Below are positions 6,295 to 63,367 of a DNA stretch of 64,000 nt, piece by piece; position 1 is the stretch's first letter, and the number at the start of each line of letters is the position of its first letter. The notes under the pieces were generated by a model. It was not told the origin of the DNA. It saw only the letters and a program-made list of their open reading frames with translations, and ran no database searches. Source of the stretch: Hydrocarboniphaga sp. (lineage in GTDB: Bacteria; Pseudomonadota; Gammaproteobacteria; Nevskiales; Nevskiaceae); contig NZ_JAQGNT010000002.1 of assembly GCF_028291725.1 (NCBI RefSeq), positions 124,001 to 188,000 on the forward strand, written 5' to 3'. The position numbers and the translations under genes were made by a program.

Positions 6295-7511
6295 TGCCCG
6301 CTTACGAGTACAGCGCACTCAACGCCAAAGGTCGCCAGGAAAAAGGACTGATCGAAGGCGACAGCCCACGCCAGGCGCGGCAGGTATTGCGTGACCGCGG
6401 GCTGACCGTGCTCGCGGTCGAGCAGGTCTCGGACAAGGCCGCGGCTCAGCAGTCGTCGGTGTTCAACAATCGGGGCAGCATCAGCAGCACCGAGCTGTCG
6501 CTGTTCACGCGCCAGCTGGCGACGCTGGTGCGTTCCGGACTTCCGCTGGACGAGTCGCTGGCAGCGGTGTCGCAGCAGAGCGAATCCAAGCGCGTCAAAC
6601 GCATTGCGCTCGGCGTGCGCAGCGGCGTGCTCGAAGGCAGCACTTTGGCGCTGGCGCTTAACCAGTTTCCGAACGCATTTCCGCCGCTGTTCCGCGCCAC
6701 TGTCGAGGCCGGCGAGCAGTCCGGCAAACTCGACAACATCCTCGAGCGCCTCGCCGAATACGTCGAGAAACGCCAGGTGATGCGCAACAAGGTGATGCTC
6801 GCGGCGGTGTATCCGGCGATCCTGACCCTGGTCGCGATCGGCGTCGTCGTGCTGCTGCTGACCTATGTCGTGCCGCAGGTCGTCGGTGTTTACGCCGACA
6901 TCAAGGCCGACCTGCCACCGCTGACCACGGGCCTGATCGCGCTGAGCAATTTCCTGCGCGACTACGGCGTGTTTATGGTGATCGGCATCGTCATCGGCGG
7001 CTTCAGCTTCAACCGCATGATGCGCAACGACTCATTCAAGCGGAAAATGCATTTGCGCCAGCTCGGCCTGCCGCTGGTCGGCCGGCTGACGCGCGGCGCC
7101 AACACCGGCCGTTTCACGCGCACGCTCGGAATCCTGTTTGGCAGCGGCGTGCCGATCCTCGAGGCGATGCGCATCGGAACCCAGGTCGTCACCAACCTGC
7201 CGATGCGCGAAGCGATCGAGGTTGCCGCCCGCAAGGTCCGCGAAGGCGGCAGCCTGCATCGCTCACTGGCCGAGAGCAAGCTGTTCCCGCCAATCACCGT
7301 GCACCTGATCGCCAGCGGCGAATCATCGGGCCGTCTCGACGAAATGCTCGATCGCGCCGCAGAAAACCAGGAGCGCGAAGTCGAGACCCTGGTCGCCGCA
7401 ATGATGGGTATTTTCGAGCCCGTGCTGATTCTGGCTATGGGCGGCATCGTGCTGGTGATCGTGCTGGCGATCCTGCTGCCGATCTTCGATTTGAATCAGC
7501 TGGTGAAGTAG
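6294..7511 (+). CDS. gspF: Type II secretion system inner-membrane platform protein GspF
   Basis: GspF is the polytopic platform protein that couples GspE to pseudopilin assembly. The 405-residue product starts MPAYEYSALNAKGRQEKGLI, the typical GspF N terminus. It carries two T2SSF domains (about 72-195 and 275-397) with transmembrane segments near residues 168-195, 220-245 and 375-398. The start codon overlaps the gspE stop. Unusually, no pseudopilin genes (gspG-K) or gspL/M follow: the operon ends here at a palindromic repeat and convergent plsX. Confidence 0.95.
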   Translation: MPAYEYSALNAKGRQEKGLIEGDSPRQARQVLRDRGLTVLAVEQVSDKAAAQQSSVFNNRGSISSTELSLFTRQLATLVRSGLPLDESLAAVSQQSESKRVKRIALGVRSGVLEGSTLALALNQFPNAFPPLFRATVEAGEQSGKLDNILERLAEYVEKRQVMRNKVMLAAVYPAILTLVAIGVVVLLLTYVVPQVVGVYADIKADLPPLTTGLIALSNFLRDYGVFMVIGIVIGGFSFNRMMRNDSFKRKMHLRQLGLPLVGRLTRGANTGRFTRTLGILFGSGVPILEAMRIGTQVVTNLPMREAIEVAARKVREGGSLHRSLAESKLFPPITVHLIASGESSGRLDEMLDRAAENQEREVETLVAAMMGIFEPVLILAMGGIVLVIVLAILLPIFDLNQLVK

Positions 7512-7520
7512 TGCGCCGAT

Positions 7521-7587
7521 GTTGGGGTTCGCTGTGCTCACCCCAACAAAGGCATCGTAGGTTGGGGTGAGCGCAGCGAACCCCAAC
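7521..7587. repeat. Paired REP-like palindromes between gspF and plsX
   Basis: Two 27-base units with GTTGGGG/CCCCAAC ends lie at 7521-7547 and 7561-7587 in opposite orientation. Each is an imperfect palindrome around GCTGTGC or GCGCAGC, and together they can fold into one long hairpin. The same family occurs at 19457-19534. Both loci are between gene ends, so a terminator-like role for the convergent gspF and plsX is plausible. No transposase for the element is present in the window. Confidence 0.8.
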
Positions 7588-7595
7588 AGACACGA

Positions 7596-8627
7596 TCAGG
7601 CCTTGAATGCCCCCGGCAACCCGGAACTCGCCAGCAGCTTGCTGATCCGCATCGGCACGTCTTTCTCGACTTCCTTCAGCGCCACTTCGAGCGCACTGCC
7701 GAACGACAGCGCGTCGGCGCTGCCATGCGACTTGATCACGATGCCCTGCAGTCCGACGAAGCTGGCGCCGTTGTAGCGCCGCGGATCGATGCGCCGCGAC
7801 AGCGCTTTCAGTGCCGGCATCGCCGCCGCCGCTCCGGCACGCGTGAACACGTTGCGATCGAATTCCTCGCGCATGAACTGACGGATCAGCTTGGCGACGC
7901 CCTCGCCGGTTTTCAGCGCGACGTTGCCGGCGAAACCGTCGCAGACGACGACATCGAGATCCGAGAAGAACACGCCGTCGCCTTCGACGAAGCCGACGTA
8001 GTTGATCGTCGATTTCTGCAGCAGCGCGGCGGCGCTGCGGATCGTGTCATTGCCCTTGATTTCTTCGGCACCGATGTTCAGCAACGCCACGCGCGGGCGT
8101 TCCACGCCGTTCACCGCCGTGACCAGGGCGGAGCCCATCACCGCGAACTGCACCAGCTGTTCGGGCGTGCATTCGGCATTCGCACCGAGATCCAGCATAT
8201 GCACCGGGCGAAGCACCGCCGGCAGCGCCGAGACAATCGCCGGGCGATCGATACCGGGCAGCGTTTTCAGCACGAAACGCGCGGTCGCCATCAGCGCGCC
8301 GGTATTGCCGGCGGACACCGCGGCGCTGGCCTGCCCGGCCTTGACCAGGTTGATGGCGACGCGCATCGAGGAATCTTTCTTGTGCCGCAGCGCCTTGGCC
8401 GGAGACTCGTCCATGGCCACGACTTCGCTGGTGTGCTGCAGGCTCAGGCGCTTGCCCGGCTGCCAGCGCGTATCGAGCAGCGCCGCGCGGAGCCGTACTT
8501 GATCGCCTACCAGCACGATATGCAGCTTTTTATGCTGCTCCAGGCACGACAAAGCGGCGGGCACGGTCACTGATAGACCGTGATCGCCGCTCATGGCGTC
8601 TACTGCGAGAACGACGGGCGCGGCCAT
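7596..8627 (-). CDS. plsX: Phosphate acyltransferase PlsX
   Basis: PlsX converts acyl-ACP to acyl-phosphate, the donor for the first step of phospholipid synthesis. The 343-residue protein begins with the diagnostic VLAVDAMSGDHG motif and contains the conserved ALRHKKDSSMR, AAVSAGNTGALMA and GFAGNVALKTGEG segments. Length is normal. It is the last gene of the leftward yceD-rpmF-plsX operon, 26 bases after rpmF. In many proteobacteria fabH-fabD-fabG-acpP follow, but here the next gene is convergent gspF, so the fatty-acid synthesis genes must lie elsewhere. Confidence 0.96.
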   Translation of the reverse strand: MAAPVVLAVDAMSGDHGLSVTVPAALSCLEQHKKLHIVLVGDQVRLRAALLDTRWQPGKRLSLQHTSEVVAMDESPAKALRHKKDSSMRVAINLVKAGQASAAVSAGNTGALMATARFVLKTLPGIDRPAIVSALPAVLRPVHMLDLGANAECTPEQLVQFAVMGSALVTAVNGVERPRVALLNIGAEEIKGNDTIRSAAALLQKSTINYVGFVEGDGVFFSDLDVVVCDGFAGNVALKTGEGVAKLIRQFMREEFDRNVFTRAGAAAAMPALKALSRRIDPRRYNGASFVGLQGIVIKSHGSADALSFGSALEVALKEVEKDVPMRISKLLASSGLPGAFKA

Positions 8628-8653
8628 CTTCGGTTACGCGCCGCCTTAGAGGA

Positions 8654-8848
8654 TTAATCCTCGGTTGATTCCGGTGCAGACTTGTCGATCACCTTGCGGC
8701 CACGGTAATAACCGTCGGCCGTCACGTGGTGACGCAGATGCGTTTCGCCCGAGGTCGGATCGACCGACAGGGTCGGCGCCGACAGCGCGTCGTGGGAACG
8801 ACGGTGGCCGCGATAGGAACGGGACTTCTTGGATTTTGCGACTGCCAT
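8654..8848 (-). CDS. rpmF: 50S ribosomal protein L32
   Basis: L32 is a small protein of the large ribosomal subunit. The 64-residue product [20 protein letters not shown] has the expected basic N terminus. It lacks the C-x2-C zinc knuckle, as is usual for gammaproteobacterial L32. It lies between yceD (39-base gap) and plsX (26-base gap), the standard gene order. The recognition is secure. Confidence 0.96.
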
Positions 8849-41293: not shown

Positions 41294-42994
41294 CTACAAC
41301 TTCATGTCGTTGAGAACGACATCGATTTCATGGTTTGTGAGACTAGAAGTGGACATCGGCATGATCGGCGGTTCGACAACCTTATTACGCAGCTTCGGCC
41401 GAGCCGACGCGGGCCGCAAAAACTTGGTGAAGGTACGGTCCCGGTAGTAGCAGATCTTGTCGGCCTTGATCGGCGCCGCCGCCTCGACGATCAAAAGTTC
41501 CTTGCCTCGATCAAGTTCCCGGATTTCATGGGGCAGCATCAGCTCTCGCCGCGTGCTCCCCTCCGAGACGTTCCCATTCCAGGGATCGTTGACACGACGC
41601 GAGCGGCTACGAGTCGTGATGGTGCGAAAGCCCATTTCTTCGGACAAATATTTTGCGGTCTTGAGGCTATTCTGGGCATAAGCGATCCTTATGTTCGCCG
41701 TCGATAGAAACGTTTCGGTCACCGCACGCCCGTAGACCTCTTCGAGTTGGGACAGGTCCTGAATGACGGGCGCAAGCATGATGTTGTATCCGGCGAAGTA
41801 CGCGATGCCTTTTTCCACATTCTCCAGCCTCCCCAACGCCGTGAACTCGTCGAGTAGAGCCAACACCTGCAGAGGTTCATCCCTGCTGGGGAGCAATCCC
41901 AACAGACCGTCGAAGGTCTGCTGCACGAAGATGTTCAACAGCGGCGACAGACGCGCGATGTCCCGAGGCATGACGCCCAGATAGATCGTCATTGGCTGGC
42001 GCCGCAAGTCACGCTGGTCGAAGTCCGTGCTCGACGTGGCACGATCCACCAACGGATTTGCAAACAATGAGAGCGCCGCTTTCAGCGACGACAACACGCC
42101 GGATTGTTCCTTGAACGCCTTGCCTAGAAATCCGTTGAACTGCATCACCGCCATTGGATCGAGCTTCGTCTCGTGCTCCTTCATGACCCAGGTCAAATAG
42201 TCGGCGAAGTTTTGTGTCGACAGAATCGCCCGGTAGACGGCGCCGAGCGATGCTCGCTCATTCACATCAAGCAAGAAGAGAATCAGCCCGTCGAGTAGTA
42301 CCCTCGCCTCGTTGGTCCACATGGGGTCGGCACGCGGGGGTGTTACGACAAGCTTCGCGGTAATCGCCTGCACGTCATTGACGCGCAGGTTTCGATCCGA
42401 CGAGACGAAGTCCAATGGGTTGTAGGCATGGGTTCGCCCTTCCGTATCCAGTGGGGCGAACAGCACGATTTGTTGTCCCATCGCTTCACGCGCGCCGGAG
42501 GTCTTCTCGAAGTTCTCCAGCTTCAGGTCATTGACGATCACCGAACCGCGCCAGGTCAGCAGGTTGGGAATAACGAAACCGACGCCTTTCCCCGATCGCG
42601 GCGGTGCAAATAGCAGCACGCCCAGTTGTCCATTCGCCCTCAGCAGCCGGCCGCGGAGTCGACCCAGGATCAGGCCATCAGGTGCGCGCAGTCGGGCCGA
42701 ACGCACTTCGCTTTCGTCGGCAAAGTGAGCGTCTCCGAACAACGCAGGCCGGCGGGTGAGCGCCGGCAATAAAGCGAATAGGGCGCTCATAGCGATGGGC
42801 ACCGAGAATGCCGTAAAAAGAAGCACTCGATAGTGCGGCGACGGCGAGTAAGTTCGCCACATCTGCAGAACCTCGGCGTAGCCGGGCATGTAGGTACTGG
42901 AGCCTACGAATGCCGCGAACAACATTCCTGCAAGCCACGGTGCTGCTACCAGCAGCAATAGCGACGGAATCAAATCCTTTGAAGAGTAACGCAC
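41294..42994 (-). CDS. Type IV secretion/conjugation coupling protein (VirD4/TraG family)
   Basis: Coupling proteins bring relaxase-bound DNA to a type IV secretion channel. The 566-residue protein has two N-terminal transmembrane segments (about 10-30 and 56-78), FGDAHFADESEVR, Walker A APPRSGKG (130-137), VIPNLLTWRGSVIVNDLK and Walker B VLALLDEFTALGR. Long helices rich in Arg follow. It looks full length. Only a small upstream gene accompanies it; no trb/virB, relaxase or integrase genes are visible, so it is probably an orphan left from a conjugative element. Confidence 0.9.
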   Translation of the reverse strand: MRYSSKDLIPSLLLLVAAPWLAGMLFAAFVGSSTYMPGYAEVLQMWRTYSPSPHYRVLLFTAFSVPIAMSALFALLPALTRRPALFGDAHFADESEVRSARLRAPDGLILGRLRGRLLRANGQLGVLLFAPPRSGKGVGFVIPNLLTWRGSVIVNDLKLENFEKTSGAREAMGQQIVLFAPLDTEGRTHAYNPLDFVSSDRNLRVNDVQAITAKLVVTPPRADPMWTNEARVLLDGLILFLLDVNERASLGAVYRAILSTQNFADYLTWVMKEHETKLDPMAVMQFNGFLGKAFKEQSGVLSSLKAALSLFANPLVDRATSSTDFDQRDLRRQPMTIYLGVMPRDIARLSPLLNIFVQQTFDGLLGLLPSRDEPLQVLALLDEFTALGRLENVEKGIAYFAGYNIMLAPVIQDLSQLEEVYGRAVTETFLSTANIRIAYAQNSLKTAKYLSEEMGFRTITTRSRSRRVNDPWNGNVSEGSTRRELMLPHEIRELDRGKELLIVEAAAPIKADKICYYRDRTFTKFLRPASARPKLRNKVVEPPIMPMSTSSLTNHEIDVVLNDMKL

Positions 42995-46069: not shown

Positions 46070-48229
<2,160 letters not shown>

Positions 48230-48294: not shown

Positions 48295-49479
48295 TCAGAC
48301 GCGGCCGTAGGCGGTGACCACGCAGGCACCGCCGATGCCGATGTTGTGTTGCAGCGCTAGCCGTGCGCCTTCCACCTGGCGTGGTCCGCAGAGCCCGCGC
48401 AGCTGCTCGACGAGTTCCGTGCATTGCGCGAGCCCGGTCGCGCCGAGTGGATGGCCTTTCGACAGCAGGCCGCCGGACGGGTTGGTGACGACCTTGCCAC
48501 CATAGGTGTTGTCGCCATCCCAGATGAACGTCTCGGCCGTGCCCTCAGGCGTGAAGCCCAGCGCCTCGTAGGTCAACAGCTCGTTGGCGGTGAAACAGTC
48601 GTGCAGTTCGCAGACGTCGATGTCCTCGGGGCCGATGCCGGCCTGCGCGTAGACCGCGTCGGCAGCCTTCTTCGACATCTCCGAGCCCACAGCCTTGATC
48701 ATCGACCCGGCCTCGAAAGTCGAGGCATAGTCCGTCGTCATTGCCTGACCTAGAATCACGATGTCGGTCCTGAGCCCATGCTGTTTGGCGAAGCGCTCCG
48801 ACACCAGTACCGCCGCCGCGGCGCCGCAGGTCGGCGGGCAGCATTGCAGGCGCGTCAGCACGCCGTAGATCGTCGGCGTCGCCAGCACCTGCTCCACGGT
48901 GACCAGATCACGAAAGATCGCTTTGTCGTTGTGGAAAGCATGCTTGCGCGCCTTCTCCGAAATCTTCGCAAAGGTTTCGTTCTTCGTTCCGTACTTCTGC
49001 TGGTACTCGACGCCTGCGCCGCCGAACAGATGCGGCGCCGGCGGCGTGCCCGTGGGCGCGGGCTGCAGCGCCTGCGACTGGTCCACCCACTTTCCCATCG
49101 GCGGCGGGCGATCGGCGAAGCCCGCCGCGAGGGCACCGGGCGCCATCTGCTCGAAGCCGAACGCGAGGATGCAGTCGAACGCGCCGGACTCGATGGCTTG
49201 GCGCGCAAGATACAGCGCGGTCGAGCCGGTGGCGCAGTTGTTGTTGACGTTGATCACCGGCACGCCGGTCATGCCCACTTCGTAGATCACGCGTTGGCCG
49301 CAGGTGGAATCGCCGTAGACGTAGCCGGCGTAGACCTGCTGGATGTGGCTGTAGTCCACGCCTGCATCCGCGAGCGCGAGGCGGATGGCTTTAGGTCCCA
49401 TCACGGTATAAGGCTCGGCCGCGCTGGGCTTCAGGAAGGGAATCATTCCGACGCCGGCGACGTATGCTTTCTGGCTCAT
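48295..49479 (-). CDS. SCP2-type thiolase (lipid-transfer protein family)
   Basis: This 394-residue thiolase-fold protein of the SCP-x type has the nucleophile region VNNNCATGSTALYLA, the HDCFTANELL segment and the C-terminal GLLSKGHPLGATGLAQ plus HNIGIGGACVV. Such enzymes cleave 3-ketoacyl-CoAs of branched or ring-derived chains (SCP-x acts on pristanoyl and bile-acid CoA in animals) or act as retro-aldol partners. No separate DUF35/OB-fold partner gene is adjacent. It precedes fadB by 65 bases on the same strand. Confidence 0.88.
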   Translation of the reverse strand: MSQKAYVAGVGMIPFLKPSAAEPYTVMGPKAIRLALADAGVDYSHIQQVYAGYVYGDSTCGQRVIYEVGMTGVPVINVNNNCATGSTALYLARQAIESGAFDCILAFGFEQMAPGALAAGFADRPPPMGKWVDQSQALQPAPTGTPPAPHLFGGAGVEYQQKYGTKNETFAKISEKARKHAFHNDKAIFRDLVTVEQVLATPTIYGVLTRLQCCPPTCGAAAAVLVSERFAKQHGLRTDIVILGQAMTTDYASTFEAGSMIKAVGSEMSKKAADAVYAQAGIGPEDIDVCELHDCFTANELLTYEALGFTPEGTAETFIWDGDNTYGGKVVTNPSGGLLSKGHPLGATGLAQCTELVEQLRGLCGPRQVEGARLALQHNIGIGGACVVTAYGRV

Positions 49480-49596: not shown

Positions 49597-51761
<2,165 letters not shown>

Positions 51762-51773
51762 CTCGCGCTCTCC

Positions 51774-53948
51774 TCAGGCGGCCTTAGGCTGTGCTGAGAG
51801 CTTGGGATAGAAACCCTGCTCTTTTTGTGCGCGCGCCTTAAGCCAGGCCGATGGCTGAAATCGGGGACCGTAGGCCGCGGCGAAGCGCTCACAATCGGCG
51901 ACGAATCGCTGAATGCCGACGGTGTCGACGTAGCTCAGCGTACCTCCGGTCCATTGCGGATAGCCGATTCCGAACACCGCGCCGATGTCGGCGTCGGCCG
52001 GATCGGTGATCACGCCCTCTTCGAGGCAGCGCGCGGCTTCAAGCGCCTGAATCGTGAGGAAGCGTATGCGCAGTTCCTCAGCAGCGGGCTGTTCCGCCTT
52101 CGGTGGGAAGTGCTCCTTTAGACCGGGCCACAGGAATTTCTTGCCGCCGTCTTTCGGATACTCGTAGAAGCCACCCGCGTAGCGTCGGCCCTTGCGATCG
52201 AGCCGGATCAGCTTCTCGATCGCCGGCGCCGCCGCGTTGCGCAGGTACTGCTCGGCCAAGCCGTCGGTGCGCGCCTGCTGGATGATCTTCCAGGACAGCT
52301 CCTGGCTCACTTCATCGAACTGCGCAAGCGGACCGACCGGCATGCCGGCCATCTTCGCGGCGTTCTCGATCAACGCGGGCTCCACCCCTTCGAGCAGCAT
52401 GCAGGCGCCCTCGTCGATGAAGGTTGCGAACACCCGCGAGGTGTAGAACCCGGGACCGTCGTTGACCACGATCGGCGTCTTCTTCATCTGCGCGGCGAAA
52501 TCCAGCGCCTTGGCCAAGGTCTCCTGGCCGGTGTGCTCGCCCATGATCACTTCGAGCAGCGGCATGCGATCCACCGGCGAGAAGAAATGCAAGCCGATGA
52601 ACTGCGCCGGTCGCTTCGAGGCCTTCGACAGGCCCGTGATCGGCAGCGTCGAGGTGTTGCTGGCGAAGATCGCGGTGAATGGGATCACCGCCTCGGCCTT
52701 CTGCGTGACATCCTTCTTGACCTCGCGGCTTTCGAAGACGGCCTCGACCACGAGATCGCAGCCTTCGAGCTTTGCGTAATCCGTCGTCGGCGTGATGCGC
52801 GCGAGCAGGGCTGCGGATCTCTCGGGCGTCGTCGCGTTCTTCTGCAGCGCCTTGGCCAGCATTTTCTCGGAATAGGCCTTGCCGTTGTCGGCCGCGGCCT
52901 GGGTCGCGTCGATCAGCACCACCTCAATGCCGGCCTGCGCCGCCACGTAGGCAATGCCGGCGCCCATCATGCCGGCGCCGAGCACGCCCAGCTTCTTCAC
53001 CTGCGATTTCGGAACTTCCCTGGGCCGGCGCCCGAGCTTGTCGGCGATGCCCTTGTTCACGAACATGGTGCGCATGAGGTTGCGCGCCACCGGGCCCGAC
53101 AGCAGCTTGCCGAAATACTTGGATTCGACACGCAGGCCGGTGTCGAATCCGGTGATGGTGCCCTCAAAGACCGCGGACATGATAGCCAGTGGCGCCGGCA
53201 CGTTCTCACCGTACTGCCGGCGAATCTGCGCGACACCACCCATGAAGACCTGGTTGGCGAACGGCGCCGTGGGGCCAGCGCCGCCCGGCACGACGAATCC
53301 CTTGCGGTCCCAAGGCTGCTGCGCGGCGGGATTCGCCAGCACCCAGGCGCGCGCCTTGGCCGCGATCTCGTCCACCGGTGCGAGCGCATGCACGATGCCG
53401 AGCTTGAGCGCGTCGGTCGGCTTGGCCGGCGCACCCGTGAGCATCATCTGCAGAGCCGGCGCGACGCCGATCAGTCGCGGCAGACGCTGAGTACCGCCGC
53501 CACCCGGCAACAGGCCGACGGTGACTTCAGGCAGGCCGACCACGGCCTTGGGATCATCCGCAAGTACGCGGTAATGGCAGGCCAGCGCCAGTTCCAGGCC
53601 GCCGCCGAGCGCCAGCCCCGGCAGCGCCGCGGCGAAGGGCTTGCCGCCGGTTTCCATCGCGCGCGTGGTCTTGTGGAAGGCCTGCATGTCGGCGGCGGCC
53701 TGCGCCGCGGTCATGCCGTTGTCGTAGGCGTTGACGAAGTCCTTGAGATCGGCGCCCGCGACGAACTGGCCGGGCTTGGCGGAGGTGAGCACCGCGCCCT
53801 TGATCGTGGCATCGCTCAGCACGGCTCTCACCGCGGTGTCGAACTCGTTCAGCAACTCTGGCGTGAGCACGTTCATGGGCCGGCCAGCGAGATCGATGCT
53901 GATCAGCGCGATGCCGTCGTCGCCGACTGCGAGAGTCAGGTTGTTCAT
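51774..53948 (-). CDS. FadJ-like multifunctional enoyl-CoA hydratase / 3-hydroxyacyl-CoA dehydrogenase
   Basis: This 724-residue beta-oxidation protein has an N-terminal crotonase domain (GGGLELALACHYR, LPEVTVGLLPGGGGTQRLPR), a NAD-binding VLGAGMMGAGIAYVAAQAG near residue 320 and dehydrogenase domains with FFSPVDRMPLLEVI and GPGFYTSR. Compared with the FadB-like protein 4 kb downstream, it is the FadJ/anaerobic-type arrangement. A GGAG site supports the ATG at 53948. It is paired with a thiolase 14 bases upstream, the usual fadJ-fadI or fadB-fadA pairing. Confidence 0.92.
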   Translation of the reverse strand: MNNLTLAVGDDGIALISIDLAGRPMNVLTPELLNEFDTAVRAVLSDATIKGAVLTSAKPGQFVAGADLKDFVNAYDNGMTAAQAAADMQAFHKTTRAMETGGKPFAAALPGLALGGGLELALACHYRVLADDPKAVVGLPEVTVGLLPGGGGTQRLPRLIGVAPALQMMLTGAPAKPTDALKLGIVHALAPVDEIAAKARAWVLANPAAQQPWDRKGFVVPGGAGPTAPFANQVFMGGVAQIRRQYGENVPAPLAIMSAVFEGTITGFDTGLRVESKYFGKLLSGPVARNLMRTMFVNKGIADKLGRRPREVPKSQVKKLGVLGAGMMGAGIAYVAAQAGIEVVLIDATQAAADNGKAYSEKMLAKALQKNATTPERSAALLARITPTTDYAKLEGCDLVVEAVFESREVKKDVTQKAEAVIPFTAIFASNTSTLPITGLSKASKRPAQFIGLHFFSPVDRMPLLEVIMGEHTGQETLAKALDFAAQMKKTPIVVNDGPGFYTSRVFATFIDEGACMLLEGVEPALIENAAKMAGMPVGPLAQFDEVSQELSWKIIQQARTDGLAEQYLRNAAAPAIEKLIRLDRKGRRYAGGFYEYPKDGGKKFLWPGLKEHFPPKAEQPAAEELRIRFLTIQALEAARCLEEGVITDPADADIGAVFGIGYPQWTGGTLSYVDTVGIQRFVADCERFAAAYGPRFQPSAWLKARAQKEQGFYPKLSAQPKAA

Positions 53949-53962
53949 GGTGAATCTCCGGA

Positions 53963-55165
<1,203 letters not shown>

Positions 55166-55209
55166 CATCGTCTCCTGCGGCCGGTTCACCGGCTCACTGT
55201 AGTGTGGAT

Positions 55210-55839
55210 TCAGCGCTCGCCGCTCTGTCTTAACGCGCGCGGGACTTCTTTCTTGAACAGTTCGTGCAGCTCGCGAATAGCAATCTTGGGATTGGTCAGC
55301 CAGCGATAGATCAGACCATCCACCGCCGCGCAGAACAGTTCCGCGAACAGCGAGGCGTCGATCTTGGGGCTCACGCTGCCGGCTTTCTTGCCGTCCTCGA
55401 TCCAGCGCTGCACGTCGCGCCGCTGCGCCTTGTGCGCCTTGGCAACATTCGCCTGGAACTCCGAACCGGGATCGATGCTGGCATAACGCAGCAGGTACAT
55501 CGCCCGCATCTCGTCGGGTTCTTCCGCAATGAATCCATACAGCGCGTCGATCACGCACACCAGCGCGTCGGCGCCGTTGCGATCACCCACCGCCTGTTGC
55601 ACGCGACGAATCCAGTCGGCCATGGCGACGTCGTGCACCTGAGCGAGCAGGCGCGCCTTGCTGCCGTAGCGATGCGTGACCAGCCCGCGCGAATAACCCG
55701 CCCGCTCGCCGATCGCGGCGAGCGTGGTGCCGGCGATCCCGCACTCCACGATCAAGGCGATCGCAGCCTGCATCATCCGCTGGTCGGACAGGGCCGTGCG
55801 TTCTTCCTGCTTACGTCGGACAGGTAGCGATTCGACCAT
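55210..55839 (-). CDS. TetR-family transcriptional regulator
   Basis: This 209-residue regulator has an N-terminal helix-turn-helix (about 22-65: MMQAAIALIVECGIAGTTLAAI ... YSRGLVTHRYGSK, broken here for length) and an all-helical ligand-binding C-terminal domain with a hydrophobic segment FAELFCAAVDGLIYRWL. The ATG at 55839 gives the usual length; upstream in-frame codons are poor. It lies at the head of the leftward catabolic block and is divergent from the crotonase-kinase operon. It probably controls both in response to an acyl-CoA. Confidence 0.9.
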   Translation of the reverse strand: MVESLPVRRKQEERTALSDQRMMQAAIALIVECGIAGTTLAAIGERAGYSRGLVTHRYGSKARLLAQVHDVAMADWIRRVQQAVGDRNGADALVCVIDALYGFIAEEPDEMRAMYLLRYASIDPGSEFQANVAKAHKAQRRDVQRWIEDGKKAGSVSPKIDASLFAELFCAAVDGLIYRWLTNPKIAIRELHELFKKEVPRALRQSGER

Positions 55840-55950: not shown

Positions 55951-56718
55951 ATGTCCGAGCCCGTCGTCGTCGAACGTCGCGATCATCTGGCGATTGTCAC
56001 CATGAACCTGCCCAGGCGCCGCAACGCACTGGTGCCCGAGCTGTACCTGGCCCTTGCACGCACCCTGGCCGAACTGCAGGACGAACCCAAGCTGCTTGTA
56101 CTGGTGTTGTCCGGCGGCAAGCACTTCTGTGCCGGCGGCGACCTGGGCGGCCTGGACGACCCGGCACTAAGCATGCGCCGTGCGATGCAAATGGGCAGCC
56201 GCATCGTGCGTACGCTGATCAGCGGCCGGTTACCCGTCGTGGCCGCGGTCGAGGGCAATGCCTACGGCGCGGGCTTTTCGATCGCGATGGCCTGCGACTT
56301 CGTCGTGGTCGATGAGGCATCCACGTTCTGCGCATCGTTCGGACGAGTCGGCCTGCAGCCCGATTACGGGCTCATGTGGACGCTGCCGCAGCGCGTGGGG
56401 ATCGGCATGGCGCGCGAGATCCTGATGTTCTGCGAACCGATCCGTGGCGAGCAGGCGAAGGAGCTGAAGCTGGCCGATCGGCTGGCGCCTGTCGGCACCG
56501 TACTCGACACCGCCGTCGCACTCGCCCGGCGGCTCGCGCAGCTGGCGCCCAGTACCCTTGCCACCACCAAAGCCATACTTTCGAGGTCGCCGATGTCGCT
56601 CGACACTATGCTCGCCTGGGAGGCGGACACGCAGTCGCTGCTGCTGCACAGCGAGGATTTCGCCGAAGGAGTGAAAGCGTTCGGCGAACGCCGCGATCCG
56701 CATTTCACGGGGCGCTGA
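55951..56718 (+). CDS. Enoyl-CoA hydratase/isomerase (crotonase) family protein lacking the usual Glu pair
   Basis: This 255-residue crotonase-fold protein has the oxyanion-hole loop KHFCAGGDLGGL and VAAVEGNAYGAGFSIAMACDFVV. The two Glu residues used for hydration are not at the normal sites: GGGxE is replaced by GAGFS, and PEVxxGxxPxxGG by LQPDYGLMWTLP, which offers an Asp. An isomerase or other crotonase reaction is more likely than simple hydration. GAGGAG seven bases before the ATG supports the start. It is the first gene of a four-gene operon with kinase, dehydrogenase and SDR. Confidence 0.85.
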   Translation: MSEPVVVERRDHLAIVTMNLPRRRNALVPELYLALARTLAELQDEPKLLVLVLSGGKHFCAGGDLGGLDDPALSMRRAMQMGSRIVRTLISGRLPVVAAVEGNAYGAGFSIAMACDFVVVDEASTFCASFGRVGLQPDYGLMWTLPQRVGIGMAREILMFCEPIRGEQAKELKLADRLAPVGTVLDTAVALARRLAQLAPSTLATTKAILSRSPMSLDTMLAWEADTQSLLLHSEDFAEGVKAFGERRDPHFTGR

Positions 56719-56719
56719 C

Positions 56720-57811
56720 ATGAACACCGCAATCGAGGTGGAAAGCCCGCAGCTGCGCAGCGCGCAGGACAGCGTCGCGCAGGACTGGACCAGGCTCGCG
56801 AGCTACCTCGCCACGCAGGGTTTGAGCTTTGACCCCGAACCCGCGCCGCGCCAATTCGCGGGCGGCTTCGCCAACCTCAACTACCTGGTTCGGATCGACG
56901 GCATCAAGGCTGTGCTGCGTCGTCCGCCGATGGGTCCGCTGCCGCCCGGCGCTTACGACATGGGCCGCGAATCTAAAATTCTTTCAAGGCTGCATGAGCA
57001 ATTTCCACTGGCCCCGCGCGCACTGCACCTGTGCCCGGCTGCCAACATACTTGGCGCGCCGTTCCAGATCACCGAGTACCGCCGCGGCATCTCGATCCGC
57101 GACACGTTGCCGCCGCCGTTTGCCGGCGATGCCGCTGTTGGCCGTCAGCTTGGCGCGACCATGATCGACGTGCTGAGCCAGTTGCATCGGGTGAATCCCG
57201 TCGATGCCGGCCTTGAAGATCTGGGCAAGCCGCAGCGCTTTCTGGAACGCGCGGTGGAAGGCTGGATCAAGCGTTCGAACCTTGCAGTGCAGGGGTGGGC
57301 AACGCCGCGCACACTGGCGCTGATCGACGAACTTTCCGCGTGGATGCGCACCAACAGCGTGCCCGACGGCGCGGCCGTGCTGCTGCACAACGACTTCAAG
57401 CTCGACAACATCCTGCTCGACCCGGCGACGCTCGCGCCGGTTGCCGTGCTCGACTGGGACCAGGGCACACGCGGCGACGGTCTGTTCGATCTCGCTACGC
57501 TGTTGAGTTACTGGACCGAGCCCAGCGACCCGGACTTCATGCACCAATTGCAGCAGATGCCGACCGCGCAGCCGGGCTTCCCCACCCGGCTCGAAGCGGC
57601 GCAGGCTTACGCGGCATCGACAGGCCGCGATCTGTCTGGCTTCCGCTTTCATCGCGTGGTCGCGCAGTTCAAGACCGCGATCATTTTTGCACAGCTCTAT
57701 GCACGCTGGCATGCAGGCGCAACGAAGGAAGACCGTTTCGCCTTGCTGGGCGGTCTCGCCGAAGGCCTGCTTGAATTCGCGCTCGATATCTCTGCGGGTC
57801 GGCGCTTCTGA
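56720..57811 (+). CDS. APH-type kinase, LvaA/ACAD10-kinase-like
   Basis: This 363-residue protein of the aminoglycoside phosphotransferase family has a P-loop-like region GGFANLNYLVRIDG, VLRRPPMGPLPPGAYDMGRE (N lobe), the catalytic loop LLHNDFKLDNILLD and the metal motif VLDWDQGTRGDGLFDLA. Members next to acyl-CoA dehydrogenases, such as Pseudomonas putida LvaA and the kinase half of human ACAD10/11, phosphorylate the 4-hydroxyl of 4-hydroxyacyl-CoA. The start follows the crotonase stop by one base and an acyl-CoA dehydrogenase gene starts 10 bases after it, supporting that role over antibiotic resistance. Confidence 0.85.
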   Translation: MNTAIEVESPQLRSAQDSVAQDWTRLASYLATQGLSFDPEPAPRQFAGGFANLNYLVRIDGIKAVLRRPPMGPLPPGAYDMGRESKILSRLHEQFPLAPRALHLCPAANILGAPFQITEYRRGISIRDTLPPPFAGDAAVGRQLGATMIDVLSQLHRVNPVDAGLEDLGKPQRFLERAVEGWIKRSNLAVQGWATPRTLALIDELSAWMRTNSVPDGAAVLLHNDFKLDNILLDPATLAPVAVLDWDQGTRGDGLFDLATLLSYWTEPSDPDFMHQLQQMPTAQPGFPTRLEAAQAYAASTGRDLSGFRFHRVVAQFKTAIIFAQLYARWHAGATKEDRFALLGGLAEGLLEFALDISAGRRF

Positions 57812-57821
57812 AAGGACAATC

Positions 57822-59003
57822 ATGGACTTCTCGCTTTCCCCCAAACTGCTCGACCTACAGCAGCGCACACGCCAATTCATCGCTGACGAGGTGATCCCGC
57901 TCGAAAACGATGCGCGTCAGACGGGCCACGGCCCCAAGGAATCGCTGCGCGCCGAACTCGTTGCGCGCGCGCGCAAGGCCGGCCTGCTGACTCCGCATGC
58001 GTCGACCGAGCTTGGCGGCATGGGCCTCACGCATATCGAGAAGGCGATCGTCTTCGAAGAGGCTGGCTACTCGCCGCTCGGGCCCGTAGCGATGAACATC
58101 CACGCGCCCGACGAAGGCAACATCCATCTCATGGAAGTGGTCGCGACGCCGTCGCAGAAGGAGCGCTGGCTGCGGCCCCTGATCGAGGGCCACATCCGCT
58201 CCTGCTTCGCGATGACCGAACCTGCGCCCGGTGCTGGCGCCGATCCTTCGATGCTAATGACCACGGCGGTCAAGGACAGAGACGACTACATTATTAACGG
58301 CAGAAAATGGTTCATCACGGGCGCCGAGGGCGCGAGCTTCACGATCATCATGGCGAAGATGGAAGATGGTTCGGCGACGATGTTTCTAGCCGACATGGAT
58401 CAGCCCGGCATCCAGCTGGAACGGCTGATGGATTCGCTCGACTCCTGCTTCGCTGGTGGCCATGGCGTACTGCACTTCGAGAACCTCCGCGTACCGGCTA
58501 GCGATGTGCTCGGCGAACTCGGCAAGGGCTTCCGCTATGCGCAGATCCGCCTCGCGCCTGCGCGCCTGACGCACTGCATGCGCTGGCTAGGCCAGGCGCG
58601 CCGCGCGCACGACGTTGCGCTCGACTACGCACGCAAGCGCCGCGCCTTCGGCAAGACTCTAGGCGAGCACGAAGGTGTCGGCTTTCAGCTCGCCAACAAC
58701 GAAATGGACCTGCACAGCGCCCGTCTCAACATCCTGCACACAGCCTGGGTACTCGACCAGGGCGGCCAGGGCAACATCGAGTCAAGCATGTCGAAAGTGA
58801 TCGTGTCCGAAGCGGTGTGGCGCATCGTCGATCGCTGCGTACAGACGCTCGGCGGCCAGGGCGTGATGGGCGAAACCATCGTGATGCGTATTTTTAAAGA
58901 CATCCGCGCTTTCCGGATCTACGACGGCCCCAGCGAAGTGCATCGCTGGAGCATCGCCAGAAAAATTCTTGGCAAGCCGGAGCGTGAGGGAGCGCATTCA
59001 TGA
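57822..59003 (+). CDS. Acyl-CoA dehydrogenase of the LvaC/ACAD10-11 type
   Basis: This 393-residue flavoenzyme-fold protein has FAMTEPAPGAGADPSML, IINGRKWFITGAEGA, FENLRVPASDVLGELGKGF and TLGGQGVMGET. At the catalytic position the usual YEGT is IYDGPSEVH, with Asp368. The DGPxEVH signature is that of ACAD10/ACAD11 and LvaC, which convert a 4-phosphoacyl-CoA rather than simply oxidising. It directly follows the kinase gene and overlaps the SDR start by 4 bases (ATGA). The substrate chain is unknown. Confidence 0.88.
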   Translation: MDFSLSPKLLDLQQRTRQFIADEVIPLENDARQTGHGPKESLRAELVARARKAGLLTPHASTELGGMGLTHIEKAIVFEEAGYSPLGPVAMNIHAPDEGNIHLMEVVATPSQKERWLRPLIEGHIRSCFAMTEPAPGAGADPSMLMTTAVKDRDDYIINGRKWFITGAEGASFTIIMAKMEDGSATMFLADMDQPGIQLERLMDSLDSCFAGGHGVLHFENLRVPASDVLGELGKGFRYAQIRLAPARLTHCMRWLGQARRAHDVALDYARKRRAFGKTLGEHEGVGFQLANNEMDLHSARLNILHTAWVLDQGGQGNIESSMSKVIVSEAVWRIVDRCVQTLGGQGVMGETIVMRIFKDIRAFRIYDGPSEVHRWSIARKILGKPEREGAHS

Positions 59004-59773
59004 GCGACGCACAGCTATTTGACCTGGCCGGCAAGGTCGCGCTGGTGACCGGCGCGTCTAGCGGCCTGGGCCGGCATTTCGCGTTGACGCTATCGCGAGC
59101 GGGAGCGAGTGTCGCGGTCGCCGCGCGGCGCGCCGACAAACTTGCGGAACTGGTCGCCGAAATCGAATCCTCCGGCAACAGGGCGGTCGCCGTCGCCATG
59201 GACGTTGCGGACCGCGCCAGCGTGAGCGCGGCACTCGACTCGATAACAGCGCGACTCGGCGTTGTTGATGTACTCGTCAACAACGCCGGCGTCAGCGATA
59301 CCAAGCGTCCGCTGGACTACACCGACGCGGACTGGGTTAGCATCGTCGGTACCAATCTCACCGGTGCCTGGATCGTCGCGCAGGAAACCGCACGTCGCAT
59401 GGTCGCCGCGAGCAAGGCCGGCAGCATCGTTAACATCACGTCGATTCTCGCCAACCGCGTCGCCGGCGGCGTGGGTCCGTACTGCGCCTCCAAGGCCGGG
59501 CTCAAGCACCTGACGCAGGCACTCGCCCTGGAAATGGCCCACAATGGGATCCGCGTCAACAGTCTGGCGCCGGGGTACGTGGCGACCGAACTCAATCGTG
59601 AATTTCTTGAAAGCGATGCGGGCGAAAGGCTGAGGGCGCGCATACCCGCTCGCCGCTTTGGTGACTATGCAAATCTCGATGGCCCCTTGCTCCTGCTCGT
59701 CTCAAAGGCCGGCGCTTACATGACCGGTAGCGAGATCGTCGTCGACGGCGGGCACCTTTGCAGTTCACTGTAG
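59000..59773 (+). CDS. Short-chain dehydrogenase/reductase
   Basis: This 257-residue classical SDR has the cofactor motif TGASSGLG (18-25), VNNAG, Ser148, Tyr161 and Lys165 (YCASK), and a C-terminal GSEIVVDGGH. The Arg-rich turn AARRADK suggests NADP or NAD use without deciding. In the Lva pathway the corresponding gene (lvaD) oxidises the 3-hydroxyacyl-CoA formed after phosphate removal, so that is the likely role. It is coupled to the dehydrogenase by an ATGA overlap and is the last gene of the operon. Confidence 0.9.
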   Translation: MSDAQLFDLAGKVALVTGASSGLGRHFALTLSRAGASVAVAARRADKLAELVAEIESSGNRAVAVAMDVADRASVSAALDSITARLGVVDVLVNNAGVSDTKRPLDYTDADWVSIVGTNLTGAWIVAQETARRMVAASKAGSIVNITSILANRVAGGVGPYCASKAGLKHLTQALALEMAHNGIRVNSLAPGYVATELNREFLESDAGERLRARIPARRFGDYANLDGPLLLLVSKAGAYMTGSEIVVDGGHLCSSL

Positions 59774-61164: not shown

Positions 61165-62154
61165 TCAGCGACAGATTGTTCCCTGTGCGGATCCCACTCC
61201 GACTTCGCCGTCCCATGTCGACAGAATCTGCATCTCCCAGTAGGCCAGTTTGACGGCGTCGAAGCCGCCGACAGCGCCGATCACTTCTTCCGCCGGTGAC
61301 GTTAACGAGAACGGGATTCCCCGACCGGTGTATCGCACACAGATCCGGATCTTACCGAGTTCGCTGTTGAGCACGTAGTCCATCGATTCCTTGCCTTTGA
61401 GCAGGTCCAGGTGAAACGGCGGATCTTCGACTTTCAGCGGGTAGATCTTGCCGTCAACGGCGAGCGCCCCTTCGCAATGGGCATACACGCCCTCGGGTGT
61501 GCGTCCGGTGATGAACCAGAATGCACGACGACTGGGAAACACACCCAAGACAATCTGCGACTCGCCCATCCGCTTGTAGTTGCGCGGGCCGTAGGAGTGG
61601 TCCCGGTAGCCCGCACCCGTGAATGTGAGTTCGCGACCGCCAAAGCGCAACACCCCCTTGCTGCGGTAGGCCTGCTCATCGTGACTGCTCATCATCGCTT
61701 CCTGCTTCTGCAGGTTCTGGCTGTCCAGCGACCAGACCGGAGCGATGGCATCCAATTCGAACTCGACAAACAAGGGCTCGACGATTCCGTCGCGCAATTC
61801 CGACTTCCACAGATCCGCTTGCAGTACGCGCTGCGCCGCCGCGTCGAACCGTAACGCCCAGCGGCGCCCCGGCTCCAGGCATCTGACGTTCAATCCAGCG
61901 GGTCCCGGACCCGCGTCATCCGCCTGGCGCCCGAAGCTTTTCGTCACCAGCGCTTCGCCGTTGTCCAACAACAGGACCAGCATAGCCTTCCAGATACCTG
62001 GGTCGGCTACCTGCCGCTGGTAGTGGATATAGAGGTCGAAGCGATGGTCGTCGGGGTAGACCCAGAACGCGTAGCTCTCGCTCCAGAACGGAATGCCGGC
62101 CGGGATGCTCTTTCTTGGCAGATCGTCTGCGTATTCCAATTCGTTCATTGCCAT
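61165..62154 (-). CDS. DUF7064-like protein of catabolic clusters
   Basis: This 329-residue protein has FWSESYAFWVYPDDHRFDLYIHYQRQ at the N terminus, a central beta-rich part and the striking GAGYRDHSYGPRNYKRMGESQIVLGVFPSRRAFWFITGR. This pattern matches the DUF7064 type found near phosphotransferases and acyl-CoA genes, and recalls the lipocalin-like carotenoid 1,2-hydratase/AttH fold. The role is unknown. AGGA ten bases before the ATG at 62154 favours that start over the ATG at 62148. It is divergent from the second kinase gene, with the operator between them. Confidence 0.7.
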   Translation of the reverse strand: MAMNELEYADDLPRKSIPAGIPFWSESYAFWVYPDDHRFDLYIHYQRQVADPGIWKAMLVLLLDNGEALVTKSFGRQADDAGPGPAGLNVRCLEPGRRWALRFDAAAQRVLQADLWKSELRDGIVEPLFVEFELDAIAPVWSLDSQNLQKQEAMMSSHDEQAYRSKGVLRFGGRELTFTGAGYRDHSYGPRNYKRMGESQIVLGVFPSRRAFWFITGRTPEGVYAHCEGALAVDGKIYPLKVEDPPFHLDLLKGKESMDYVLNSELGKIRICVRYTGRGIPFSLTSPAEEVIGAVGGFDAVKLAYWEMQILSTWDGEVGVGSAQGTICR

Positions 62155-62213: not shown

Positions 62214-62272
62214 ACTTCGCAATGGCCATCGGAAGCGACCATCACCGTGACCCTTTTCCTTCGAGATATTTT

Positions 62273-63367
62273 ATGACCGAGCCCATCACCAACCTTCCGC
62301 ATAAGCTGCCCGCCGGCATCCACGCCGGCCCTCCTCCTCGCCAGGATGACTCGGATGGATTTCGCAAACGATTGCTCTGGTGGTTTCGGCAGCGACTTCC
62401 GCAAACGGATATCCAGATCGCGCACCTGGAGGTTCCGAAGAGCAACGGTTACTCCAATGAAACCACTTTCGTCGACCTCGCGATCGCCGGGACCACGGAG
62501 CGCTACGTTCTTCGGCGGGCGCCCCTGCGTGATCCAATCTTCCTCGGCTTCGACCTCTCGATCGAGCGCCGAACGATGCAGGCCTTGGCCAAGGCGTCGA
62601 CAGCGCCGGTTGCAGAGGTCCGTTGGTTCGAGGAAGACGTCTCGATTCTCGGCGCGTCCTTCTTCGTAATGCGTCACGTCGACGGGCGAGTCCCCTCCGA
62701 CAATCCCCCCTACTCCGCGGCAGGGTCCGGCTGGATCGCGGACGCCACGGCCAGGCAGCGAGAACAACTCTGGTGGAACGGCTTGCAGACCCTGTCTGCT
62801 GTGCATCGCGTCGACTGGAAGGCAACCGGCCTGCAGACGCCCAATGCGAGCGGTGCCGGTCCTCTCTCGCGTGATCTTGAAGCATTCGACGCGCTGTACC
62901 GACGGGGTTGCGCCGGTCACTACCGCGCGATCCTCGATGAGGCTCATGAGTTCCTCAGCGACCGATTGCCAGTAGAGCCGGAGGTGCGCCTGTGCTGGGG
63001 CGACGCGCGCCTCGGCAACCTGATGTTCCGCGACTGGACCTGCGTCGCCGTTCTCGATTGGGAAATGTCGTCGATCGGCATGCCGGAAAAGGATCTGGCC
63101 TGGTGGCTGCTGATGGATCGCTATTTTCACGAGGGCATCGGAATCCCGCGCATGGCCGGATGGCCAACCCACGAGGAGACGCTGCGCCAGTACGCCGCGT
63201 GGGTGGGCCGGCCGCTGAAAGATCTTCCGTACTACACGGTCTTCGCCGCTTACCGCTCACTGGTCATTTATGCCCGCTTCGTGGCACTCGGACTCATGCC
63301 CACGGTGCCTTCCGACTTGCAGCCCAGCGCGAGGCTGCTGCGTAGAGCGCTGGACGACGCGCGCTAA
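62273..63367 (+). CDS. Second APH-type kinase
   Basis: This 364-residue protein of the same superfamily as the 56.7-kb kinase is of a different branch: N-lobe NGYSNETTFVDLAI, VLRRAPLRDPIFLGFDLSIE, the catalytic loop LCWGDARLGNLMFRD (Trp replaces the common His, as in many of these proteins) and VAVLDWEMSSIGMPEKDLAWWL. It presumably phosphorylates a small hydroxylated molecule or acyl-CoA. The ATG at 62273 (MTEPITNLP) is chosen because 62222 lies within a few bases of the likely transcription start; the longer form cannot be excluded. Confidence 0.82.
   Translation: MTEPITNLPHKLPAGIHAGPPPRQDDSDGFRKRLLWWFRQRLPQTDIQIAHLEVPKSNGYSNETTFVDLAIAGTTERYVLRRAPLRDPIFLGFDLSIERRTMQALAKASTAPVAEVRWFEEDVSILGASFFVMRHVDGRVPSDNPPYSAAGSGWIADATARQREQLWWNGLQTLSAVHRVDWKATGLQTPNASGAGPLSRDLEAFDALYRRGCAGHYRAILDEAHEFLSDRLPVEPEVRLCWGDARLGNLMFRDWTCVAVLDWEMSSIGMPEKDLAWWLLMDRYFHEGIGIPRMAGWPTHEETLRQYAAWVGRPLKDLPYYTVFAAYRSLVIYARFVALGLMPTVPSDLQPSARLLRRALDDAR

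Follow-up and report, generated by a model that had tools for sequence, protein, structure and literature searches.

What does an operon do that couples an aminoglycoside phosphotransferase (APH)-type kinase to an acyl-CoA dehydrogenase (ACAD) with an aspartate at the place of the usual catalytic glutamate? The question is raised by positions 55951-59773, plus strand, of a 64,000-nucleotide stretch of Hydrocarboniphaga sp. (assembly GCF_028291725.1, 6.47 Mb; contig NZ_JAQGNT010000002.1, here C42), which we refer to as the window. Four tightly coupled genes there encode a crotonase-fold protein, the kinase, the ACAD and a short-chain dehydrogenase/reductase (SDR). We suggest, with a probability of about 0.72, that the operon is a bacterial module for the removal of 4-hydroxyacyl-CoA, in which an LvaC/LvaD core is joined to a kinase from outside the LvaA lineage. 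In mammals, removal of the 4-hydroxyl from fatty acids was assigned only in 2024-2025 (PMC11342911, PMC12440821).

The operon

All four open reading frames are present, and the Pfam scores of their products far exceed the cut-offs.

55951-56718, plus strand: crotonase-fold protein of PaaG type, putative enoyl-CoA isomerase (ECH_1, 161.7 bits)
56720-57811, plus strand: APH-fold kinase, 'class III' below, putative 4-hydroxyacyl-CoA kinase (APH, 122.4 bits)
57822-59003, plus strand: LvaC-type ACAD, putative 4-phosphoacyl-CoA phosphate-eliminating enzyme (Acyl-CoA_dh_1, 141.4 bits)
59000-59773, plus strand: LvaD-type SDR, putative 4-oxoacyl-CoA/4-hydroxyacyl-CoA oxidoreductase (adh_short, 189.7 bits)

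The crotonase gene begins with ATG, preceded by GAGGAGAA. Its stop lies 1 base before the kinase start, 10 bases separate the kinase and ACAD genes, and the ACAD and SDR genes overlap by 4 bases. An earlier note on this DNA had described four coupled genes of these families, with which reading frames, spacing and Pfam matches agree; the IYDGPSEVH motif that it reported in the ACAD, with Asp at residue 368, can be read directly in the sequence. Kinase and ACAD are separate reading frames and not a fusion as in ACAD10/11. Their pairing is not a matter of chance, because the pair recurs twice more in the genome (ACAD 85% and 80% identical, kinase 75% and 71%) and the identical order of crotonase, kinase, ACAD and SDR is found in Solimonas soli and S. 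terrae.

An LvaC-type dehydrogenase and an LvaD-type SDR

Aligned with its relatives, the ACAD carries Pro88, Arg243, Arg248, His251, Cys252, Met253, Arg254 and Asp368, and the phosphate-pocket signature is present: an HCMR motif, an upstream Arg and a catalytic Asp where ACADs usually have Glu. The 4-phosphoacyl-CoA site of mouse ACAD11 has D753, the HCMR residues H634 and R637 and the upstream R626, with R631 common to ACADs, and residues of this kind were reported as catalytic, essential or substrate-binding (PMC12440821); a Pro and an Arg were described as special to ACAD10/11 (PMC11342911). Across 30 relatives aligned at 40-85% identity (25 of LvaC type and 5 of a third group, see below), Arg243, Arg248, His251, Cys252, Arg254 and Asp368 are invariant, and Pro88 and Met253 are retained in at least 90%. 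The predicted structure (pLDDT 92.1) has 4hr3, two chains of 2wbi and 8v3u as its best fold matches, by modest margins, and ACAD11-type chains head the list.

In a quick tree of 104 rows, built without KT2440 LvaC and with 20 near-copies left out, the ACAD falls inside an 84-row LvaC-type group (support 99). The ACAD10/11-type enzymes form a separate group (99), the third group of 9 rows branches with them weakly (86), and all three are split from 5 conventional ACADs (100). By this sequence evidence the enzyme belongs to the LvaC group. The earlier note had likened it to LvaC and ACAD10/11 alike; it does group with ACAD10/11-type and lva-operon ACADs to the exclusion of the conventional ones, with the refinement that it is closer to the ACADs of lva-type operons (72-75% identical; 72.4-72.7% to those at loci L184, from Stutzerimonas stutzeri, and L123) than to human ACAD11 (36% to a fragment). 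Hereafter, 'LvaC-like' covers the LvaC type plus the third group. The latter (L121, L122, L135-L141) is about 40-45% identical to the window ACAD, stands between the LvaC and ACAD10/11 types, has the full pocket signature with a DGASEVH-type loop, and is paired with kinases at 4 of its 9 loci.

The SDR shares 66.5% identity with the SDR at the LvaD position of L184, and its gene adjoins and overlaps that of the LvaC-type ACAD. LvaD was reported to reduce levulinyl-CoA to 4-hydroxyvaleryl-CoA (PMC6692424). The L184 operon consists of a divergent PrpR-type regulator, a phosphotransferase, a DUF6285 protein, a histidine phosphatase, the ACAD, the SDR, an acyl-CoA synthetase, a DUF485 protein and an acetate symporter, and L123 has the same order as far as the synthetase, minus the phosphatase. 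Apart from lvaB, this arrangement mirrors the cluster of Pseudomonas citronellolis LA18T, whose kinase, ACAD and SDR are 59%, 78% and 67% identical to KT2440 LvaA, LvaC and LvaD; that report gives no lvaB for LA18T (PMC6692424). At L184 and L266 a DUF6285-type gene occupies the lvaB place, and from size and position we infer that DUF6285 is LvaB. A histidine-phosphatase-family gene often stands beside LvaB in lva-type operons (L184, 8243-9004; L181, 12381-13058).

The operon thus shares with the levulinate (lva) operons of KT2440 and LA18T an LvaC-type ACAD, an LvaD-type SDR and an adjoining kinase gene; unlike them, it has a kinase of another lineage, a PaaG-type crotonase and an adjoining beta-oxidation cluster, with no match in the window to LvaB, LvaE, LvaF/G or a PrpR-type regulator. 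Could it be a levulinate operon whose ligase, transporter and regulator genes have moved elsewhere in the genome? The families at the LvaC and LvaD positions would fit, and the KT2440 ligase LvaE was reported as not essential on levulinate (PMC6692424). However, the window has no match at E 1e-8 to LvaB, LvaE, LvaF, LvaG or the PrpR-type regulator of Stutzerimonas (for ligase, transporter and regulator the search covered the window alone). It has a divergent TetR-type regulator and beta-oxidation genes instead, and the sole DUF6285 gene of the whole genome lies on contig C88, next to another kinase. We regard a dispersed levulinate operon as unlikely. The earlier note had described the surroundings as free of levulinate-specific genes, which is correct for ligase, transporter, LvaR and LvaB, all unmatched in the window, and incorrect for the LvaD-type SDR. 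With no ligase, transporter or LvaR in the window, the substrate may plausibly be something other than levulinate.

A kinase from outside the LvaA lineage

The kinase keeps the catalytic motif H223-x-D225-x4-N230 and D245, the former (H-x-D-x4-N) being present in 84 of 84 aligned kinases. Its nearest solved relatives by sequence are 9o56 (E 4e-73), ACAD11 (2.3e-27) and 3dxp (2.8e-22); among bona fide drug phosphotransferases the best-ranked chain has E 0.0024, behind ACAD11 and 3dxp. By this ranking, the tree containing no drug enzyme, we reject a drug phosphotransferase. A grouping of the kinase with macrolide or aminoglycoside phosphotransferases, which the earlier note had named as evidence against its proposal, did not show in the ranking. 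The closest relative, 9o56, is itself deposited as an 'aminoglycoside phosphotransferase'. No paper naming PDB 9O56, 9FSG or 9FT5 turned up in the literature searched, and 9fsg was identified by its PDB title.

In a kinase tree of 94 rows, class III (11 rows, of which L188, L189 and L194 are duplicates) unites the window kinase, its paralogues, the Solimonas and Hydrocarboniphaga orthologues and one Cupriavidus plasmid kinase (100/100). Together with L126 and 9o56 it forms a 13-row group (100/98), and it joins class II, which contains the ACAD11 kinase and 3dxp, at 96/91, with long branches flagged. The LvaB-linked kinases (class I) stand apart, eight named ones lying across a 100/100 branch. 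With 22.5-24.5% identity to three LvaB-linked kinases, a place in another clade and no adjoining LvaB, the window kinase is not LvaA. Of the earlier note's proposal of a kinase of LvaA or ACAD10/11 type, acting with the DGPxEVH dehydrogenase as those pairs do, the LvaA lineage must be given up; the likeness to ACAD11 remains, with ACAD11 among the best solved relatives, a CoA-contacting arginine pair that aligns, and the clade of the ACAD. ACAD10 and ACAD11 share with the window proteins the catalytic Asp, HCMR, upstream Arg and Pro of the dehydrogenase and the motif and two arginines of the kinase; they differ in that kinase and ACAD are fused, in the low identity of the ACADs, and in that the window kinase has a clade of its own.

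The AF2 model of the kinase (pLDDT 91.3) has 3dxp as its top fold match (Z 31.2), followed by a 25-hydroxy steroid kinase (27.4, and 26.6), Rv3168 (26.1) and homoserine kinase (23.9). Drug phosphotransferases score about 20-22 (from 21.9), with the general APH fold in common, ACAD11 scores 20.4 over 229 residues, and 9o56 is absent among the fold-match rows listed.

This ranking brings up another possibility, that the kinase acts on a different hydroxyl, such as that of a steroid or isoprenoid side chain, and the ACAD on a phosphorylated acyl-CoA beyond a simple 4-hydroxy fatty acid. Sterolibacterium denitrificans has a 25-hydroxy steroid kinase of similar APH fold, which was reported to phosphorylate a tertiary alcohol before its removal by dehydration (PMC8449060), and the C46 paralogue of the window pair lies near genes read by eye as DUF1302, DUF1329 and MMPL. 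The substrates of the steroid kinase, however, are free steroid alcohols and not CoA thioesters, and its sequence match (2.2e-6) is far below those of 9o56, ACAD11 and 3dxp. The window kinase moreover retains the CoA-contacting arginine pair aligned with ACAD11, and its partners are an LvaC-type ACAD and an LvaD-type SDR. We consider a steroid or isoprenoid substrate quite improbable, and the preferred reading of a 4-hydroxyacyl-CoA kinase is kept below.

Kinase arginines and LvaB

Modelling of ACAD11 proposed that CoA is contacted by an Arg beside the alpha-C Glu and an Arg before the catalytic subdomain (PMC12440821). Arg83 and Arg177 of the window kinase align with these positions; the first Arg is R86 in the paper and R84 as counted on the 8v3v chain, and its match rests on the description 'next to alpha-C Glu'. 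We compared 80 non-redundant kinases, 79 of them within 2.2 kb of an LvaC-like ACAD and one (L126) at 3.2 kb. Here, as in the ACAD trees and neighbourhood counts, the duplicates L188, L189, L191, L193, L194, L195, L210 and L216 were left out.

Of the 80, 49 have both arginines and 31 lack one or both. An LvaB gene no more than 1 kb from the kinase is present in 27 cases, every one of which (27/27) is without the full pair; 49 of the 53 kinases with no LvaB neighbour have it (in 7 of these 53 a contig end lies less than 1 kb from the kinase). Four kinases (L114, L116, L118, L119) have neither LvaB nor the pair. Shared descent confounds this comparison: with the LvaB-linked kinases forming what is essentially a single clade, it amounts to about one evolutionary contrast. 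LvaB may supply CoA recognition to kinases without the arginine pair, as the alignments suggest. A case against this idea is the DUF6285-linked kinase on C88, which has one of the two arginines. The LvaB-like gene mentioned above (C88:7087-7359; locus L043, about 5991-8751) lies beside this kinase, which is of another lineage, and beside a further ACAD. In LvaB itself, 24-26 of the 27 rows of an alignment agree in certain Arg and Lys columns, an observation that we do not use as evidence; rows L230 and L236 of that alignment hold a non-LvaB-like stretch, and their LvaB genes were seen in the homology-based neighbourhood search.

Recurrence and kinase exchange

The source genome has 36 ACAD places at E <=1e-20, of which 6 were not fetched; the 30 loci examined hold 29 distinct ACADs (L033 repeats its neighbour). 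Three are of the window type (C42, C46 and C103, the last cut by a contig end after 385 residues), and a contig-end ACAD fragment on C88 keeps DGPSEVH. Beside these stand four signature-bearing ACADs of ACAD10/11 type (C111, C33, C46:76606 and, with HAMR, C102), and 21 of the 29 are without the signature. The C46 copy comprises kinase, ACAD, SDR and a gene read by eye as a nitroreductase. On C103 the counterpart of the window's TetR-type regulator sits beside the kinase, with no crotonase in between.

Neighbourhoods in other genomes were determined by six-frame homology, absence of a kinase meaning no match at HMM E 1e-5 in the DNA examined. We collected loci by their similarity to the ACAD, with a cap (the best 80 of at least 487) or with E cut-offs, and the counts are not population frequencies. 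Of 131 loci, 82 have a kinase within 2.2 kb and one has it farther away; 39 have none, as do 9 short loci. Flanks of 2.5 kb or more on each side are available for 96 LvaC-like loci that are non-redundant. Of these, 60 have a kinase no farther than 2.2 kb from the ACAD (56 of 87 if the third group is set aside), 51 have an SDR that is 45% or more identical, and 42 have both. Kinases at least 66% identical to that of the window occur at 6 places in 45 genomes chosen for a strong ACAD match, all adjoining the ACAD; in 42 genomes hand-picked as having no strong ACAD match, none reaches 66% (best 37%). In Hydrocarboniphaga effusa (L104, L191) the ACAD is 84% and the SDR 78% identical to those of the window and the motif is intact, with no adjoining kinase. 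Plasmids carry such genes as well: from 217 plasmid records, 8 of 30 listed annotated loci were examined (H14 and H18 because a phosphotransferase was already named for them), and all 8 have a phosphotransferase and an SDR-type gene near the ACAD, the SDRs of L185-L187 being only 32-40% identical.

The kinase classes were set on the kinase tree and then mapped to the ACAD trees. On a tree of 36 chosen LvaC-type ACADs, in which those of the window and of Solimonas make up a clade of 7 rows (100/98), the four kinase classes need 5 changes (minimum 3). A single grouping of class I ACADs is rejected (p-AU 0.0003), as is one of class II (0.001); that of class III is barely rejected (0.042) and hinges on the long-branched plasmid row L187. 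Adding three third-group rows (39-row tree) raises the changes to 6, with an inflated class rejection (p-AU 1.1e-5), and the 104-row quick tree agrees in kind. Because the classes need five changes and the class groupings are rejected, related ACADs are, on this phylogenetic evidence, served by different kinase lineages.

The crotonase and the beta-oxidation genes

The closest solved chains to the crotonase are 3hrx (E 4.2e-38), listed as Thermus thermophilus PaaG (PMC4498308), and 6sl9/6slb. Its LQPDYGL aligns with GLVPDSGL of 3hrx, with the Asp kept; 6sla, a near-identical deposited chain, has Asn at this position. Ser and Arg stand at what we take to be the two hydratase Glu positions, and the Asp is presumably the functional residue of PaaG. 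PaaG, a 1,2-epoxyphenylacetyl-CoA isomerase/enoyl-CoA isomerase, was described with one catalytic glutamate (PMC4498308); its window relative differs in context, standing in a kinase-ACAD-SDR operon. The FadJ and FadB of the adjoining cluster keep both hydratase Glu (by eye), so other enzymes provide for hydration and the crotonase is more likely to act as an isomerase. The crotonase, by its alignment, is a probable enoyl-CoA isomerase of PaaG type; the earlier note's word 'atypical' is apt in relation to hydratases, and less so given the PaaG-type isomerase residues.

The earlier note had placed the pair within a large beta-oxidation cluster; such a cluster lies upstream of the operon on the minus strand (about 44-55 kb), with a divergent regulator gene and further ACAD genes. 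Family-library searches cover the FadJ-like gene and the ACAD at 50607; the other members were named by eye.

55210-55839, minus strand: divergent TetR-type regulator (family by eye; counterparts 80% identical on C103 and 74% in Solimonas soli)
53963-55189, minus strand: thiolase (gene call, named by eye; no family search)
51774-53948, minus strand: FadJ-like hydratase/3-hydroxyacyl-CoA dehydrogenase (3HCDH_N and ECH_1 above cut-off; PRK11154 FadJ 581.7 bits, under its cut-off of 869)
50607-51761, minus strand: conventional ACAD (family searches; AGTSEI in place of the LvaC-type DGPSEV)
49597-50598, minus strand: nitronate-monooxygenase-like gene (61% to an annotated nitronate monooxygenase of Sphingobium)
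48295-49479, minus strand: thiolase/lipid-transfer-like protein (by eye; C103 counterpart 90%)
46070-48229, minus strand: FadB-like multifunctional enzyme (by eye; C103 counterpart 58%)

Much of the cluster is thus copied on C103, the ACAD (83%) and the nitronate-monooxygenase-like gene (71%) included. The Sphingobium nitronate monooxygenase lies near an LvaC-type ACAD, and a homologue of the window gene (at least 50% identity) is found within 8 kb of an LvaC-like ACAD in 9 of the 96 loci, the window counted.

Three other genes of the window may be mentioned. Just past the cluster, 41294-42994 (minus strand) reads by eye as a TraG/VirD4-like conjugation coupling protein. A second APH-type kinase gene (61165-62154, minus strand; APH 89.6 bits) points away from a neighbour (62222-63367, plus strand) whose match to DUF7065 is below threshold. 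On C88 a similar-looking gene (by eye) precedes a related kinase (L043, 2797-3792 and 3794-4882), and the pairing thus recurs.

Proposed pathway

We propose that the SDR interconverts 4-oxo- and 4-hydroxyacyl-CoA, comparable to the reported activity of LvaD. The kinase would then move the phosphate of ATP onto the 4-hydroxyl of the CoA thioester; by recognising CoA through its own Arg83 and Arg177, it could make LvaB unnecessary. In the ACAD, Arg243, His251 and Arg254 would hold the phosphate while Asp368 removes the alpha proton. The phosphate would be eliminated in a cycle in which FAD is reduced and returned, giving an enoyl-CoA with zero net oxidation. A redox-active yet net-neutral FAD was proposed for ACAD11 (PMC12440821), and we infer by analogy that the window ACAD may work likewise. 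Any 3-enoyl product could be shifted to the 2-enoyl-CoA by the PaaG-type crotonase, and the neighbouring FadJ/FadB, thiolase and ACAD would complete beta-oxidation. Since the window has no ligase or transporter match, the substrate is probably an internal 4-oxo- or 4-hydroxyacyl-CoA that arises when a chain carrying oxygen near its middle undergoes beta-oxidation in the cell.

Several observations weigh against this pathway. A kinase within 2.2 kb is missing from 36 of the 96 loci, and 27 have neither kinase nor SDR; H. effusa, of the same genus, is among the kinase-less. These neighbourless loci argue against a strictly fixed unit, and the ACAD may work with a kinase encoded elsewhere, or kinase-free. 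A window-like crotonase is present in only 3 of the 96 loci (the window, S. soli and S. terrae), and for this reason we do not count it as part of the core. Oleate hydratase, a simple source of 4-hydroxyacyl-CoA, is unsupported: no intact gene was found in the genome, only one 32-position fragment with a stop, just above the family cut-off. The equivalence of the comparison operons with LvaA and LvaC rests on operon order and on PMC6692424, not on KT2440 sequences. Finally, two lva-operon ACADs are 37-38% identical to the human ACAD11 fragment (54-56% with similar residues), in disagreement with the 62% and 56% given for LvaC against ACAD10/11 in PMC11342911.

That ACAD and SDR need no phosphorylation, the adjoining kinase being incidental or regulatory, could draw on the kinase-less loci (9 of the 36 retain the SDR), on the five changes of kinase class, and on kinases (E <=1e-25 to that of the window) being present in 29 of the 42 genomes without a strong ACAD match vs 39 of the 45 with one, figures so close that presence in a genome says little, but is very improbable, as the phosphate-pocket residues are kept even without an adjoining kinase and a kinase adjoins the ACAD in 60 of 96 loci.

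Implications

The operon is of a known kind and of new composition: an LvaC/LvaD core with a non-LvaA kinase and an added isomerase, without LvaB, and multiplied in its genome. In a literature search that left out most subscription journals, we found no publication that describes LvaB-free kinases alongside LvaC, or an exchange of the kinase. Tentatively, and at somewhat less than even odds for its three parts taken jointly, we suggest that the LvaC core, often with LvaD, has combined with four or more APH-kinase lineages that are deeply separate from one another; that kinases with the arginine pair work alone, while the LvaA lineage, which either lost this pair or never possessed it, needs LvaB as a CoA-recognition subunit; and that the window type multiplied in this hydrocarbon degrader to clear several mid-chain oxygenated intermediates.

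The system offers a direct test of the role of LvaB, a small essential protein, and, for mechanistic studies, natural counterparts of ACAD10/11 in two-protein form. It also gives a better name to genes annotated as aminoglycoside phosphotransferases. The bacterial pathway is known through levulinate, and the occurrence of the LvaC/LvaD core with an LvaB-free kinase suggests that its scope is wider.

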